The translations under genes and the position numbers were made by a program. Below are positions 40,215 through 64,000 of a stretch of 64,000 nucleotides of DNA, one piece after another. Location of the stretch: contig CP000875.1 of the NCBI GenBank assembly GCA_000018565.1, positions 2,061,199 through 2,125,198 on the forward strand, read 5' to 3'. Position 1 is the first letter of the stretch. Each line of letters begins with the position of its first letter. Under the pieces are notes generated by a model, which saw only the letters and a list, made by a program, of their open reading frames with translations, was not told the DNA's origin and did no database searches. The DNA is from Herpetosiphon aurantiacus DSM 785. GTDB lineage: Bacteria > Chloroflexota > Chloroflexia > Chloroflexales > Herpetosiphonaceae.

Positions 40215-41321
40215 ATGGATCGACTTTCGCTGAACCCAACCACGAGTGCTGCTCACGAGCTAAACCTAGCTCAGCCATTTACAGGCCAACCAACTGGCTT
40301 GTGGTTGCTGCGCTTTGGCCGTTTGAGCCTGCTGTTGGATCGACGGGCTTGGCTGGCAAGTTTGCTTTTGCTGCTTGCGACGGTAGTTTTGGTTGGCCTG
40401 AGCCTCGGCAGTGGCACAGTCAAAATCGCCCCACTTGATGCCTTGGCAGCTTTGTTTAATCAAGGCGAAACCAAAAATATCTTTATTGTGCGCGATTTAC
40501 GGCTGACGCGGGTTTTGGCAGGTGGCATGGCTGGCGCTGCTTTGGGTATGGCTGGCTGTTTGTTGCAAACGCTCAGTCGCAATCGGCTGGCCAACCCCGA
40601 TACGATTGGGATCGATAATGCTGCGACGGCCTTTGCGGTTGCCTCGGTTGTGGGAGTTAGCACAACTCTCGCGCCCTCAGGCATGGCCTTGATTGGCGCA
40701 ATCACCATGCTTTCCTTAACCTTTGCCTTGAGTGGCGGGGCTGGCACACGTGGCTATCGTTTCTTAATCACTGGGCTGGGCTTGGGCGCAATCTGTGGAG
40801 CTGCCACCAATTTGATGCTAGCACGTGCCCCAATTGATGCTGCCAACGATGCTTTTCCTTGGACAATTGGCAGCTTGAACGATCGTTCGGGAATTACTGT
40901 AAGTTTGCTGGCTTGGGGCGTGGTGATATTACTCCCGCTGGCTGCGATCGTGGGTAAACGCCTTAATTTGGTGCGCTTGCCCGATGCGGTTGCCCAAAGT
41001 TTGGGGGTGCGGGTCAATCGCTTGCGCTTCTTCACGATTTTGTTGGCGGGCAGCTTGACCGGCCTTGCGGTTGCGGTTGCTGGCCCTGTTGGCATGATTG
41101 GCTTGGCGGCACCTGAATTAGGGCGGCGCTTGGCTGGCCCGCGCACTGTGCCGATTGTGCCTTCGGCCTTGGCTGGCGCATGCTTTACCATGCTGGCTGA
41201 TTTGCTTGGCCGCACTTTGTTCAGCCCAACTGAAATTCCGGTGGGCATTGTTACAGCCTTAGTTGGCGGCCCTTACTTATTATGGTTCCTGTTGCGAACC
41301 CCGCGAGGCAAACAATTATGA
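40215..41321 (+). CDS. FecCD-family iron-siderophore ABC permease 2
   Basis: A 368-residue partner permease. The N-terminal 55 residues are an extra cytoplasmic extension before the first helix. The conserved blocks are VRDLRLTRVLAGGMAGAALGMAGCLLQ, SRNRLANPDTIGIDNAA, the coupling segment AQSLGVRVNRL and VAGPVGMIGLAAPELGRRLAGP. The stop overlaps the start of the ATPase gene by 4 nt (ATGA at 41318-41321), which indicates translational coupling. AGGAG precedes the ATG. Confidence 0.94.
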   Translation: MDRLSLNPTTSAAHELNLAQPFTGQPTGLWLLRFGRLSLLLDRRAWLASLLLLLATVVLVGLSLGSGTVKIAPLDALAALFNQGETKNIFIVRDLRLTRVLAGGMAGAALGMAGCLLQTLSRNRLANPDTIGIDNAATAFAVASVVGVSTTLAPSGMALIGAITMLSLTFALSGGAGTRGYRFLITGLGLGAICGAATNLMLARAPIDAANDAFPWTIGSLNDRSGITVSLLAWGVVILLPLAAIVGKRLNLVRLPDAVAQSLGVRVNRLRFFTILLAGSLTGLAVAVAGPVGMIGLAAPELGRRLAGPRTVPIVPSALAGACFTMLADLLGRTLFSPTEIPVGIVTALVGGPYLLWFLLRTPRGKQL

Positions 41322-60133: not shown

Positions 60134-60301
60134 TTAAGGAATATCGTAGCCTTGATCGCTATCATCGCAGCTAGTGCCTGAGTAGCCATCGATTGGCATC
60201 AGACAACCTACAACGTCGTTAATTTCAGCAGCTTCTTCTTCGAGGTAGGTCAGGCCAAAAATAGCTGGCAGTTCTTCAGTTTTGATGTTCTCGAATTCCA
60301 T
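60134..60301 (-). CDS. RiPP (graspetide-type) precursor peptide 5
   Basis: A 55-residue peptide. The leader MEFENIKTEELPAIFG continues into the helix LTYLEEEAAEINDVVG, nearly identical in all five copies. The C-terminal part starts at CLMPIDG and carries YSGTSCDDSD followed by QGYDIP. Thr/Ser near Asp-Asp-x-Asp suits omega-ester formation by an ATP-grasp ligase. Start ATG 60301 has AAGGAG upstream. It is the last of five tandem genes on the minus strand, ahead of the terminator at 60071. It was identified by homology to its neighbours. Confidence 0.85.
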   Translation of the reverse strand: MEFENIKTEELPAIFGLTYLEEEAAEINDVVGCLMPIDGYSGTSCDDSDQGYDIP

Positions 60302-60348
60302 CAAGGTCACTCCTTATACACACAATCTAAATTTGTTGGCTAGCGAAA

Positions 60349-60519
60349 TTAAGGAATTTGAGTGCCTGGAGGCATATCGCTATCATCGCAGCCGGTGCCT
60401 GAGTAGCCATCGACCACAAAACAACCAACAACATCGTCAATTTCAGCAGCTTCTTCTTCGAGATATGTCAGGCCGAAGATCATTGGCGTTTCGTTGATTT
60501 GGGTGGTTTCAAATTCCAT
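60349..60519 (-). CDS. RiPP (graspetide-type) precursor peptide 4
   Basis: A 56-residue peptide and the most diverged of the set. The leader MEFETTQINETPMIFG precedes the common helix LTYLEEEAAEIDDVVG. The C-terminal part CFVVDG lacks the LMPI of the others, and the core YSGTGCDDSD is followed by MPPGTQIP. It keeps both invariant cysteines, the CDDSD motif and the terminal Ile-Pro. ATG 60519 has AAAGGAG 8 nt upstream; earlier in-frame codons are rejected. This divergence suggests that the product family is diversified under selection for the conserved ring residues. Confidence 0.88.
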   Translation of the reverse strand: MEFETTQINETPMIFGLTYLEEEAAEIDDVVGCFVVDGYSGTGCDDSDMPPGTQIP

Positions 60520-60582
60520 GAACGTCACTCCTTTACACACAATTACACACAATTATTGATAGCAGAAAGAATCAAGCTTGAA

Positions 60583-60741
60583 TTAAGGAATTGCGTCAAT
60601 ATCATCGCAACTTGTGCCTGAATAGCCATCGATTGGCATCAAGCAGCCAACGACATCATCGATTTCGGCAGCTTCTTCTTCAAGATAGGTTAGGCCAAAA
60701 ATTACTGGTAGTTCTTCAGTTTTAATGTTTTCAAATTCCAT
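60583..60741 (-). CDS. RiPP (graspetide-type) precursor peptide 3
   Basis: A 52-residue peptide, the shortest copy. The leader MEFENIKTEELPVIFG and helix LTYLEEEAAEIDDVVG match the array. The C-terminal part is CLMPIDG, then YSGTSCDDID with a short AIP tail. The Ser of the CDDSD motif is Ile here, so that position is not essential for modification. The start ATG 60741 has AAAGGAG upstream, spacing about 8 nt. It was found by direct translation between its longer neighbours. Confidence 0.88.
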   Translation of the reverse strand: MEFENIKTEELPVIFGLTYLEEEAAEIDDVVGCLMPIDGYSGTSCDDIDAIP

Positions 60742-60790
60742 CAGAATAACTCCTTTGAATAGAATTAATTACGAAATGTTGAATATGAGG

Positions 60791-60964
60791 TTATGGGATT
60801 AAATAACCACCATCTGAATCGTCGCAACCAGTTACGGTATAACCTTCGCCATCAATTGGCATCAAACAACCAACAACATCGTTAATTTCGGCAGCTTCTT
60901 CTTCGAGGTAGGTTAGGCCGAAAATAATGGGCAGTTCTTCAGTTTTGATAGTATTGAATTCCAT
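60791..60964 (-). CDS. RiPP (graspetide-type) precursor peptide 2
   Basis: A 57-residue peptide with leader MEFNTIKTEELPIIFG and helix LTYLEEEAAEINDVVG. The C-terminal part CLMPIDGEG is followed by YTVTGCDDSD and GGYLIP. It differs from peptides 3 to 5 by an extra Glu-Gly before the core and by T-V-T in place of S-G-T, and shares both features with peptide 1. ATG 60964 follows AAAGGAG by 8 nt; upstream in-frame codons have no site. Confidence 0.9.
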   Translation of the reverse strand: MEFNTIKTEELPIIFGLTYLEEEAAEINDVVGCLMPIDGEGYTVTGCDDSDGGYLIP

Positions 60965-61013
60965 AAGTGTTACTCCTTTAGCAAATGAGCTACAGCCATA
61001 CAATCTGAATCGA

Positions 61014-61202
61014 TTAGGGAATCATTTCGCCTGGATTGCCGCCATCAGAATCATCGCAACCAGTCACGGTATAGCCTTCGCCATCAATTGGCATCAAACA
61101 ACCAACGACATCGTTAATTTCGGCAGCTTCTTCTTCGAGGTAGGTCAAGCCAAAAATAATCACATCTTCGGTCTTTTCTACCAGCATTGTACGATCACGC
61201 AT
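61014..61202 (-). CDS. RiPP (graspetide-type) precursor peptide 1
   Basis: A 62-residue peptide, first in the array and next to the promoter at 61276-61303. Its N-terminus (MRDRTMLVEKTEDVIIFG) differs from the MEFxx start of the others, but the helix LTYLEEEAAEINDVVG is identical to that of peptide 2. The C-terminal part CLMPIDGEG, YTVTGCDDSD and a longer GGNPGEMIP tail follow. GAGGAG lies 8 nt before ATG 61202. The leader helix is the likely docking site for the ATP-grasp ligase, as in microviridin-type systems. The exact leader/core border is not certain. Confidence 0.9.
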   Translation of the reverse strand: MRDRTMLVEKTEDVIIFGLTYLEEEAAEINDVVGCLMPIDGEGYTVTGCDDSDGGNPGEMIP

Positions 61203-61275
61203 TGTTGATACTCCTCAAGTTAGTTTGATTAATTATTGAACAATAGATTCTTGTTCAATTCCAGCAATGAGCATG

Positions 61276-61303
61276 ATTATAGAAATATTTCTGTATATGT
61301 CAA
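61276..61303 (-). promoter_or_regulatory. Consensus sigma-70 promoter of the precursor array
   Basis: On the minus strand TTGACA (61303-61298) and TATAAT (61281-61276) are both perfect hexamers with a 16-nt spacer. Transcription would start near 61268, giving a leader of about 65 nt before precursor 1. It is the best promoter in the window and drives the peptide genes separately from the exporter and ligase genes. Confidence 0.8.
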
Positions 61304-61564
61304 GATTAATTTATGTATTTTTGTTACTTTATAATCATATTTACTTTTATAAAATTACTTGTATTATTAAATGAGTATATCCAAAAATAGCTTAATTGAT
61401 TGATAATTGCTACTTATTGGTAGTAATAGAATTTAATTGTTCATTTAATCAAAGTACTCTTAAGTTTACACACTATCAGGCTTAATTATTGATAGCGAGT
61501 TAAAATCTGTACCATCCTTACTTGATGATATTTGACCGATAGCAATGTTAGGCGCATTCAACCT
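61304..61564. other. AT-rich intergenic region
   Basis: This stretch lies between the precursor promoter and the hairpin after the exporter gene. It is very AT-rich around 61310-61460 and shows no open frame with a ribosome-binding site, and no repeat. It may hold regulatory sites upstream of the promoter, but none is recognisable. Confidence 0.5.
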
Positions 61565-61594
61565 GCCTGCTACCTTGAAGCTAAGGTAGCAGGC
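61565..61594 (-). terminator. 12-bp hairpin after the exporter gene
   Basis: Arms gcctgctacctt (61565-61576) and aaggtagcaggc (61583-61594) pair perfectly around a 6-nt loop, 14 nt past the stop of the ABC exporter on the minus strand. No T run follows, so it may attenuate rather than fully stop transcription into the precursor array. Confidence 0.65.
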
Positions 61595-61608
61595 TACGCA
61601 GTAACTTC

Positions 61609-63825
61609 CTAGGCCGCGAGTTGGTTCAAATGGGTTTCAGGCATGACAATTGGCTCGGGAGCGGGCTTGGTAATCTGGCCTTTGATCAAGTTGTAATAAT
61701 GGCCAGCTTGGGCTACAAGTTGGTCATGGCTGCCCGATTCGATAATTTCGCCATTCTCCATCACCAAAATGCGGTCGGCCCGTAAAATGGTGCTCAGACG
61801 ATGGGCAATCACCACGGTGGTGCGACCAGCCCGATTATCTTCGAGGGCTTGTAAAAACCCTTGTTCGGTGGCGCTATCCAAGTTGCTGGTAGCTTCATCG
61901 AGAATTAAAATCGGTGCATTTTTGAGCAATGCGCGGGCAAGCGTTATGCGTTGGCCTTGACCAGAAGAGAAATTATCACCACCACGTGCCACTTGCGATT
62001 CGTAGCCATACATTTGGCCTGCAATAAATTCATCGGCCTGAGCAATTTTGGCGGCATTGCGAATTAATTCTAAATCGGTATCACGCATCAGGGTGATGTT
62101 ATCGCGAATTGATTGTTGCAGCAGCCGCGTATTTTGAAAGACGGCACTAATTGAGCGTCGTAATTCATCGGGGTCGATATTGCGCGTGCTAATGCCATCA
62201 ATTAATACATCGCCGTGGGTTGGGAGATAAAAACCTGCGATCAAATTAGCCAACGAGGTTTTACCTGAGCCAGTTTCACCAACAATTGCTACAGTTTCGC
62301 CAGGCTTGATTTCAAAATTGAGCTTTTTTAGCACCATTTTGTTGCGCATATAGGCAAAATGCACATCATTGAACTTAATTTCGCCCTTGACTTCAGCTAA
62401 TGCGATTGGTTCGCTGGTTCGTGAAGCTTCGTCTGGTAAGGTGGTAATTTCATCCATCCGTTCAATGCCCAATAACGCTGTGCGCAGATTGAGAATTGTG
62501 GCAGGTAAACGCTGGATTGGTTGGAGATAAAATGCGACCATTCCAAACAAAACAACTAACTCACCTGGAGTCATGCGCCCAGCAAATACTTGGCTACTGC
62601 CGTACCATAAAATTGAAGCAGTAATTAATGAGGTTGCTAAAACGCTCCATGCGCTGGGCAGGGCGATATTAATTCGGCTATCCATACGAGATTTTGTGAA
62701 ATTAGCCAATTTTTCGTTGAGTAAAGCTTTATATTGTTCTTCTGCGCCAAAAACCTTGATTGTTCGTACACAATCAAATACATCGACCATCTGCGAGGTG
62801 AATTCTTCCATCCGAATGATTGCGGCTAATTGAGCGTTATACACCCGATCATTCAACGCGAATAAGACAAACCAAACAAGTGGTAAGGCAGCTGCTGCGA
62901 TCAAGGCCGCAATTGGGTTATAGAATGCGATAATGCCTAATGCAGTTACAAACATTGCTACATCGGCCAAAATCGTAATCAATCCTTCAGAAAGCGCTAA
63001 TTGCACCCCATCGGCTTGGGTAACCCGCAACACCAGTCCAGGGATACAACGAACATCAAATACTTTCATTGGTAGGCGTAACAGACGATCAATATACTGA
63101 GCTGAATAGGCTTGGTGGACATGCTGCCCAACCTTGGCACTAAGCCATAAACGCCCAAATTGGAGTGTCGATTGGAAAACACTGACCAAAATTAACCCTA
63201 GACCTAAGGCAAAAAGTAATGCTTGATCACGATTTGGGATAATCGAATCGATCAATATTTGCATAAAAAACGAGGTTACCCAGCCTAACGAGGTTGCTAG
63301 CAAGGCGAAGAAGAGCACAATTCCTAACATAAGTTTATGTTGGCGGGCGAGCTGCAACAGGGTTTTGAAGGGCTTAACATCGATCTCGCGAGGTTTGAGC
63401 GCTGCGGTAGGCTTAAATTCAACTAAATAACCACTCCACATGGCCTCAAATTCAGCTTTGCTGAGCGTGCGCAGACCACGGCTAGGGTCTAGCACAACCA
63501 CTGAGGTTGGCGACCATTTATGGATAACCACATAATGGCCTTCGCCACCCTTGAGGTGGGCAATCGCTGGCAATTGGATATGTTGCAATGCGCTATAAAT
63601 CGCTTGAGCAGGCCGTGATTCAAGCCCAATTGCGCGGCCTCCATCACGCAAACCTGCCAAACTTGTACCATTGCGATCGGCTCCAACCAAAGACCGTGCT
63701 TGCTCCAAGGTAATTCGATGCTTGTAGAAATGCGCTACTGATGCAAAAACCGAGGGGCCGCAATCGCGGCCTTCTGAAGCACGAATCCATGGTAAGCGGC
63801 GGTAAATTAACGTCTTACTGAGCAT
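61609..63825 (-). CDS. Peptidase C39-ABC exporter (PCAT) for the RiPP precursors
   Basis: A 738-residue protease-exporter. The N-terminal C39 domain has the catalytic Cys22 in GRDCGPS, His97 in GEGHYVVIHKW and Asp113 in VLDPSRG, so it should cut leader peptides. Six transmembrane helices follow (about 165-430). The C-terminal ATPase domain has Walker A VGETGSGKTSLANL, signature NFSSGQGQRITLARALL and Walker B ILILDEATSNLD. ATG 63825 has AGGAGG 7 nt upstream and overlaps the end of the ATP-grasp gene by 11 nt, so the two are coupled. It most likely processes and exports the five peptides encoded downstream. Confidence 0.93.
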   Translation of the reverse strand: MLSKTLIYRRLPWIRASEGRDCGPSVFASVAHFYKHRITLEQARSLVGADRNGTSLAGLRDGGRAIGLESRPAQAIYSALQHIQLPAIAHLKGGEGHYVVIHKWSPTSVVVLDPSRGLRTLSKAEFEAMWSGYLVEFKPTAALKPREIDVKPFKTLLQLARQHKLMLGIVLFFALLATSLGWVTSFFMQILIDSIIPNRDQALLFALGLGLILVSVFQSTLQFGRLWLSAKVGQHVHQAYSAQYIDRLLRLPMKVFDVRCIPGLVLRVTQADGVQLALSEGLITILADVAMFVTALGIIAFYNPIAALIAAAALPLVWFVLFALNDRVYNAQLAAIIRMEEFTSQMVDVFDCVRTIKVFGAEEQYKALLNEKLANFTKSRMDSRINIALPSAWSVLATSLITASILWYGSSQVFAGRMTPGELVVLFGMVAFYLQPIQRLPATILNLRTALLGIERMDEITTLPDEASRTSEPIALAEVKGEIKFNDVHFAYMRNKMVLKKLNFEIKPGETVAIVGETGSGKTSLANLIAGFYLPTHGDVLIDGISTRNIDPDELRRSISAVFQNTRLLQQSIRDNITLMRDTDLELIRNAAKIAQADEFIAGQMYGYESQVARGGDNFSSGQGQRITLARALLKNAPILILDEATSNLDSATEQGFLQALEDNRAGRTTVVIAHRLSTILRADRILVMENGEIIESGSHDQLVAQAGHYYNLIKGQITKPAPEPIVMPETHLNQLAA

Positions 63826-64000
63826 TAACAGCCTCCTGAGCCAACGGAATTGGATAATCAATGCTGGCAGCTTGTAACATTGCTGCAAAATGTTCATAAA
63901 TTGGCATACCTGTCAGGCGATCAATCCAATCGAATTGGCCGTTGGGGTTGATTTCGAGAAAAATATGCTCGCCTTCGGGGGTGACAATCATATCGATGCT
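63815..64000 (-). CDS. ATP-grasp peptide ligase (MvdD/graspetide type), 3' part only
   Basis: Only the last 61 codons lie in the window; the gene continues past 64000. The visible sequence (SIDMIVTPEGEHIFLEINPN, GQFDWID, then LTGMPIYEHFAAML) contains the D.i....G...FLE.NPNGQ metal- and ATP-binding motif and the W(I/L)(E/D)..TG(L/M)PI segment. These are characteristic of the ATP-grasp ligases that form ester or amide cross-links in microviridins and other graspetides. Its stop overlaps the exporter gene. The identification rests on this C-terminal motif and on the precursor array; the N-terminal part should be checked in the adjoining sequence. Confidence 0.85.
   Translation of the reverse strand, partial: SIDMIVTPEGEHIFLEINPNGQFDWIDRLTGMPIYEHFAAMLQAASIDYPIPLAQEAVNAQ

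Follow-up and report, generated by a model that had tools for sequence, protein, structure and literature searches.

A likely graspetide locus of the Herpeto_peptide family in Herpetosiphon aurantiacus, with one ATP-grasp ligase and five precursor genes

What does a predatory bacterium make from five small, closely related genes that lie beside an exporter and an ATP-grasp ligase? The question is raised by one end of a 64,000-nucleotide stretch (hereafter, the window) of the chromosome of Herpetosiphon aurantiacus DSM 785, a filamentous wolf-pack bacterium (contig CP000875.1, positions 2,061,199 to 2,125,198). In order of transcription, and all on the minus strand, the locus comprises an ATP-grasp ligase, an ATP-binding cassette (ABC) exporter with a C39 peptidase domain, a gap of about 400 bases in which a hairpin is followed by a perfect promoter, and lastly the five precursor genes. 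The original prediction, made from the letters of the window, took it for a graspetide-type locus in which a single ligase makes a set of five related products. We arrived at the same reading, with cyclization of the products predicted and a ligase that resembles microviridin-type synthetases: the locus is very probably a graspetide locus of the Herpeto_peptide family (PF14409). Its gene set, family membership, conservation and promoter are observed directly, and they show a wolf-pack predator to carry a system that is both compact and conserved.

The five precursors are intact open reading frames of 62 (61014..61202), 57 (60791..60964), 52 (60583..60741), 56 (60349..60519) and 55 residues (60134..60301), numbered 1 to 5 along the minus strand, each with an ATG start and its own ribosome site (AAGGAG or GAGGAG). 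Their predicted cores are LMPIDGEGYTVTGCDDSDGGNPGEMIP, LMPIDGEGYTVTGCDDSDGGYLIP, LMPIDGYSGTSCDDIDAIP, FVVDGYSGTGCDDSDMPPGTQIP and LMPIDGYSGTSCDDSDQGYDIP, respectively. They had been proposed to be paralogues, and the 60-base leader DNA, 48-56/60 identical across the ten paralogue pairs, shows that they are, and that the likeness is not due to chance. All five exceed the PF14409 cut-off of 22, with 76.6, 68.9, 61.1, 68.5 and 66.2 bits in the same order, and we saw no difference from that family (ribosomally synthesized peptide in Herpetosiphon) among the features compared. The precursor family was already known and named. According to a passage in Makarova et al. 2022 (PMC8939145), Herpeto_peptide is among the families of ribosomally synthesized and post-translationally modified peptides (RiPPs) that trace to a 2009 survey of ATP-grasp proteins. 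The suggestion that these peptides may represent a new group is therefore unsupported at the family level.

How far does this system extend? Searches with the precursor family matched 10 of 100 genomes of relatives (one match taken as a relic) and 8 of 400 genomes drawn from the phylum, a sample that overlaps the first (one match taken as chance), while neither search produced a match in 14 control genomes. The outcome is a set of 30 intact precursors, 28 of them distinct, in nine genomes: the six Herpetosiphon genomes carry 5, 6, 4, 5, 3 and 4, two other genomes of Herpetosiphonaceae carry one each, and one is found in G024, a genome from another family of the order. The last three genomes add members to PF14409. 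The locus is present in 6/6 Herpetosiphon genomes and in two of three other family members, the third genome being 75% complete. Across 43 between-species pairs, the ratio of nonsynonymous to synonymous substitution (dN/dS) was 0.06 for the leader, and for the core it was 0.13, a value biased downwards by the requirement that paired cores be at least 70% identical; nor are the 43 pairs independent of one another. The locus is kept by purifying selection.

Two matches were set aside. One, in genome G104 (21.8 bits, phylum search), lies within a 192-residue open frame that was read as belonging to some longer, unrelated protein. The other, in genome G021 (23.6 bits), is a stretch resembling a leader, PPIFGLCYLDEED...IVGC, that has no start codon ahead of it in its frame (contig C94, about 40614-40694; L054:9615-9695), and the only ligase of that genome is a distant one (134 bits) on another contig; the stretch is likely a relic and was left out of the 30 precursors.

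Of the ligase, the window holds the C-terminal 61 residues (63815..64000, minus strand), and the FLEINPNGQ and TGMPI motifs noted there were found as described. The complete gene, recovered past position 64000 from the window's own genome (L008:8014-9072, minus strand), has a GTG start and encodes 352 residues in 1059 bases including the stop, of which 873 bases, or 291 residues, lie beyond the window end. The full protein scored 194 bits against TIGR04187 (E 3.6e-57; curated cut-off 350), 172 bits against MvdC (E 1.3e-50; cut-off 425) and 160 bits against MvdD (E 5.9e-47; cut-off 475). These scores place it within the MvdC/MvdD/SAV_5884 superfamily but outside every named subfamily. They say little about novelty, because five other ligases that were scanned, three from the same clade or family and the others distant, also fall below the maturase cut-offs. 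A profile built from nine ligases matched the solved chains 7m4s (AMdnB), 7mgv (CdnC), 5ig8 and 5ig9 at E values of 6e-40 to 2e-35, 9bou at 5e-13 and 7drm at only 0.012; we take 5ig8 to be MdnB, 5ig9 to be MdnC and 7drm to be PsnB. Residues K175, R231, D294, E307 and N309, presumably those that bind ATP and Mg, fall in columns that are invariant across all nine aligned ligases.

A protein below the curated cut-offs of the maturase models could also be a RimK-like or other amino-acid ligase, with the small proteins serving as other substrates or being unrelated secreted proteins, so that no graspetide would be made. We regard this as highly improbable, given that the ligase strictly co-occurs with Thr/Asp-rich precursors, that its best matches in the Protein Data Bank are microviridin-type ligases, and that the RimK model (rimK_fam, TIGR00768) gave 31 bits, against its own cut-off of 143.4 and against 194 for the best peptide-maturase model. 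A RimK-like identity was one of the findings that the original prediction had named as fatal to it, and none emerged.

The graspetide reading also accords with how the ligase is distributed. A search of 82 genomes of the order (E limit 1e-25) returned nine ligases at 632.6-747.6 bits, with the next best at 164.5; these nine adjoin the 30 precursors, and the same nine genomes hold all the intact precursors. Among species genomes searched with a pattern limit, relatives from outside the family show 32-41% identity over the best segment, and plasmid relatives are at most 36.4% identical among the matches listed (15 of 29 records). Since the precursor-linked ligases score far above all others and their outside relatives are no more than 41% identical, they appear to form a discrete clade that accompanies this precursor family. 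The host genome carries a second ATP-grasp peptide-maturase gene on a plasmid-sized contig (G000:C2:28400-28993; L074:6032-7051), with 241.8 bits against TIGR04187, below the cut-off of 350, and some open reading frames near it look transposase-like by eye. With a crude filter, no Herpeto-type precursor was seen at the weaker ATP-grasp loci of the host genome (G000, C2) or of G046, G021 and G024.

The gene downstream of the ligase had been called a C39-ABC exporter, and its Pfam domains bear this out: Peptidase_C39 (98.4 bits), ABC_membrane and ABC_tran. This peptidase-containing ABC transporter, or PCAT (61609..63825, minus strand), has 738 residues when counted from an ATG with a ribosome site, the listing of open reading frames giving a longer, 762-residue start, and its start codon precedes the ligase stop. 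It carries the RDCGP Cys, the GHYVV His, the Walker A motif and the ABC signature; its best NCBIfam match is NHLM_micro_ABC1, at 448 bits and below the cut-off of 853. The peptidase Cys and His motifs are present in the exporters of 9/9 loci, the G024 copy ending at a contig edge. A third peptidase motif, sought with a loose pattern, was unmatched in the exporters of G001, G003 and G007, and we draw nothing from this.

Where, then, would the leader end? The five precursors share the leader IFGLTYLEEEAAEI(N/D)DVVGC. The leader helix quoted in the original prediction is indeed common to all of them, but it understated the conserved block, which runs from IFGL to a terminal Gly-Cys. The motif IFGL-x-YLEEE is present in 30/30 precursors, as is the closing Gly-Cys, even in the divergent G024 member. 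It had also been remarked that the leader lacks the PFFARFL motif of microviridins. That holds to the letter in all 30 precursors (literal motif search), but not for the generic form of the motif: 23 of the 30 have a Pro-hydrophobic-hydrophobic segment (P-x-IFGL), absent from the other seven, precursor 1 of the window among them. This segment fits Phhx(1,2)h, to which a passage in Makarova et al. 2022 (PMC8939145) gives the role of PFFARFL, and on sequence it would be the generic counterpart.

With the cut counted after the Cys, Y-15, E-8, I-7, V/I-4, G-2 and C-1 are invariant in 30/30 precursors, and a test against the C39-substrate pattern found hydrophobic residues at -4 and -7, the Gly-Cys end and a Glu at -12 in every one. 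Positions Y-15, E-8, I-7 and V/I-4 fit C39 recognition as set out in the relevant passages of PMC10885120 and PMC6363468. We favour a predicted cut by the C39 domain after Gly-Cys because the leader fits C39 recognition at the positions compared save -12, while in the alignment a cut placed ahead of the Cys would bring acids to -4, -7 and -12. Cleavage elsewhere, either before the Cys or after the Gly that precedes Tyr or Phe, would give a product that begins with Cys or with an aromatic residue; the misfit of Glu at -12 and the Gly-Gly before Phe/Tyr in precursors of G007 and G008 speak for it, but we judge it unlikely, given both those misplaced acids and a Gly-Cys that persists in 30/30 precursors, including a relative with an otherwise different core. 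The locus resembles the LahT-type PCAT loci, in which, according to passages of PMC10885120 and PMC6363468, one exporter likewise serves many precursors with a near-constant leader; here, by contrast, the ring-forming enzyme is an ATP-grasp ligase, and the cores vary far less.

The precursor genes also seem to be expressed separately. Ahead of them lies a sigma-70-type promoter, TTGACA-N16-TATAAT (61276..61303, minus strand), the only perfect consensus promoter on either strand of the window. The perfect pair, with its 16-base spacer, stands about 100 bases ahead of the first precursor in 8/9 loci, that is, in all eight Herpetosiphonaceae loci and not in G024; six of the loci were also compared in an alignment. 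Promoter-like sites as such are not enriched in the region (6, against 5.6 in shuffles), and the promoter carries weight because the match is perfect and conserved, not because of the number of sites. Between the exporter and the precursor genes, a hairpin with a 12-pair stem, GCCTGCTACCTT...AAGGTAGCAGGC, and no T-run (61565..61594, minus strand) folds at -23.3 kcal/mol (z -2.7); in L048, a hairpin of different sequence occupies the same place (-27.5 kcal/mol, z -4.0). A terminator scan reported nothing at 61565..61594. The conserved perfect promoter, together with a hairpin after the exporter gene, suggests that the precursors are made in excess over the enzyme and the exporter. A short inverted repeat, TTGAACAA...TTGTTCAA (61236-61258, minus strand), lies between the promoter and precursor 1; in an alignment of the six Herpetosiphon genomes, three have it and three lack it.

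The cores bear on which rings would form. A core with hydroxyl residues ahead of acids (Thr/Ser before Asp/Glu) behind a conserved leader, the arrangement by which graspetides are recognized, was found in 30/30 precursors. The pattern G[YF][ST]xT[GS]CDDxD with an Ile-Pro end occurs in 29/30 cores, as does [ST]x[ST]xxDDxD, and [ST]x[ST]xC(x)DDx[DE] in all 30. Among the 29 main-type cores, the first hydroxyl residue is Ser (19) or Thr (10) and the second is always Thr. Gly, Val, Ser, Thr or Leu can stand between the two, a variation that, according to a passage of PMC7823629, microviridins also show between Thr and Lys. No core contains Lys, and, as had been pointed out for this locus, the classical TxKxPSD and TTxxx(x)EE patterns are absent (0/30). 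Across the precursors of L008, L047, L048, L049, L050 and L051, the C-terminal tail types AIP, VPPGTQIP, QGYQIP, GGNPGEMIP and GYLIP recur behind different core fronts, as if paralogues exchanged tails.

Compared with microviridins (group 1), the locus shares the ligase superfamily, the nucleophiles ahead of the acids and, in G024, the register of the core. It differs in having one ligase rather than two, scoring below the MvdC and MvdD cut-offs, and precursors that lack a core Lys, TxKxPSD and PFFARFL; no microviridin model appeared among the Pfam matches of the five precursors at E 0.1. The likeness in register comes from the 30th precursor, which keeps the leader, Gly-Cys included, in front of a different core, ...GTCTACSDDGES..., that reads T1-x-T3-x-C5-S6-D7-D8-x-E10 (TxTxCSDDxE). 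In microviridins the core is T1-x-K3-x-P5-S6-D7-x-E9-E10, with links T1-D7, K3-E10 and S6-E9 (PMC7823629, in its account of the rings). The full microviridin-register pattern arose in 77 of 100,000 shuffles of the G024 core, a likeness spotted after looking, in one sequence and with no pre-planned test. If the 29 main-type cores correspond to the G024 frame minus position 6, two esters, T1-D7 and T3-D10, would be expected, a post hoc extrapolation from one divergent sequence.

Each main-type core would then hold two ester rings, one linking the first Asp of DDxD with the leading Thr/Ser of [ST]xT and the other linking the last Asp with the second Thr, crossed as in microviridins (T1-D7 and T3-D10 in microviridin numbering). 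We hold this particular layout tentatively, a little short of an even call. The same locus could instead produce nested hairpin rings like those of plesiocin, which would join the second Thr with the first Asp and the first Thr/Ser with the second Asp and leave the third Asp free. Nested rings would suit nucleophiles that precede the acids and lie close to them, and the spacing of 3 between the second Thr and the first Asp is that of the microviridin Ser-Glu link, as a passage of PMC7823629 describes it. On the other hand, all 29 main-type cores keep the third Asp, and microviridin-type synthetases match the ligase profile at 2e-35 or better, compared with a mere 0.012 for 7drm; we consider nested rings possible, if on balance unlikely. 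With plesiocin and thuringinin (TTxxxxEE hairpins), the locus has in common a single ligase and a hydroxyl/acid core. It differs in precursors without EE or TTxxx(x)EE (0/30) and with one core motif each and, for plesiocin, in a ligase profile that barely matches 7drm.

The invariant Cys invites a third layout, with three links, in which the three Asp are joined to [ST], T and C, the last of these through a thioester. Three candidate nucleophiles and three Asp are kept in 29/30 cores, the divergent core has a Cys in the corresponding position, and PMC13097080 speaks of non-native thioesters as products of graspetide synthetases. Set against this, the Cys is directly beside the first Asp, and it may instead serve a disulfide or packing. 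We know of no native thioester made by a graspetide synthetase, and we consider the three-link layout improbable. Marginally more doubtful still is its fullest form, a lysine-free, single-ligase offshoot of microviridins with a native Cys-Asp thioester and a three-ring cage ([ST]/T/C to D/D/D), which, if true, would make the divergent TxTxCSDDxE relative an intermediate between the Herpeto core and microviridin.

Returning to the crossed two-ester layout, the pathway that we propose would run as follows. The five precursors would be transcribed from their strong, separate promoter; the single ligase would bind the leader helix (x-IFGLTYLEEE), phosphorylate the core Asp side chains and join them to the core hydroxyls as esters; and the C39 exporter would cut after the invariant Gly-Cys and secrete cores of 19-27 residues. 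For cores released in this way and short of two waters, the calculated monoisotopic masses are 2703.11, 2451.06, 1945.84, 2320.96 and 2311.93 for precursors 1 to 5. The products would likely act as secreted protease inhibitors or similar ligands. Several observations weigh against this account. Two esters leave a single Asp of the three unpaired, and likewise the invariant Cys, and the ligase falls short of the curated cut-off in each of the named maturase models; its AlphaFold model was poor (mean pLDDT 62, the predicted per-residue confidence) and was left unused. The leader, for its part, ends in Gly-Cys, outside the canonical GG, GA and GS, and has Glu at -12, where the C39 peptidase LahT150 requires a hydrophobic residue (PMC10885120, in the passage on this position).

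What is new, given a family already named, is the full ligase, the wider precursor set, the relative in microviridin register, the Gly-Cys boundary and the conserved promoter. The words 'Chloroflex' and 'Herpetosiphon' are absent from the main text of Carter 2026 (PMC13097080), which numbers 43 graspetide groups, and none of the open-licence papers among the matches listed (30 of 281 in one search) reports a finished product, by structure or activity, for the Herpeto_peptide family. Table 6 of the type-strain genome paper (PMC3368417) gives 14 clusters, of polyketide synthase, nonribosomal peptide synthetase, thiazolylpeptide and lantibiotic types, none described there as of the ATP-grasp type. 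Ring connectivity and protease specificity are readily testable in this system, since a single ligase comes with five natural variants of the core.

Past the end of the window, another ABC exporter is transcribed divergently (L008:9987-11777, plus strand), and its NCBIfam matches do not cover a C39 region. It adjoins the locus in 6/6 Herpetosiphon genomes, 93-99% identical in the other five, and has no close match in the examined stretches of the other two family members. This exporter possibly serves self-protection, or it may be unrelated to the locus.

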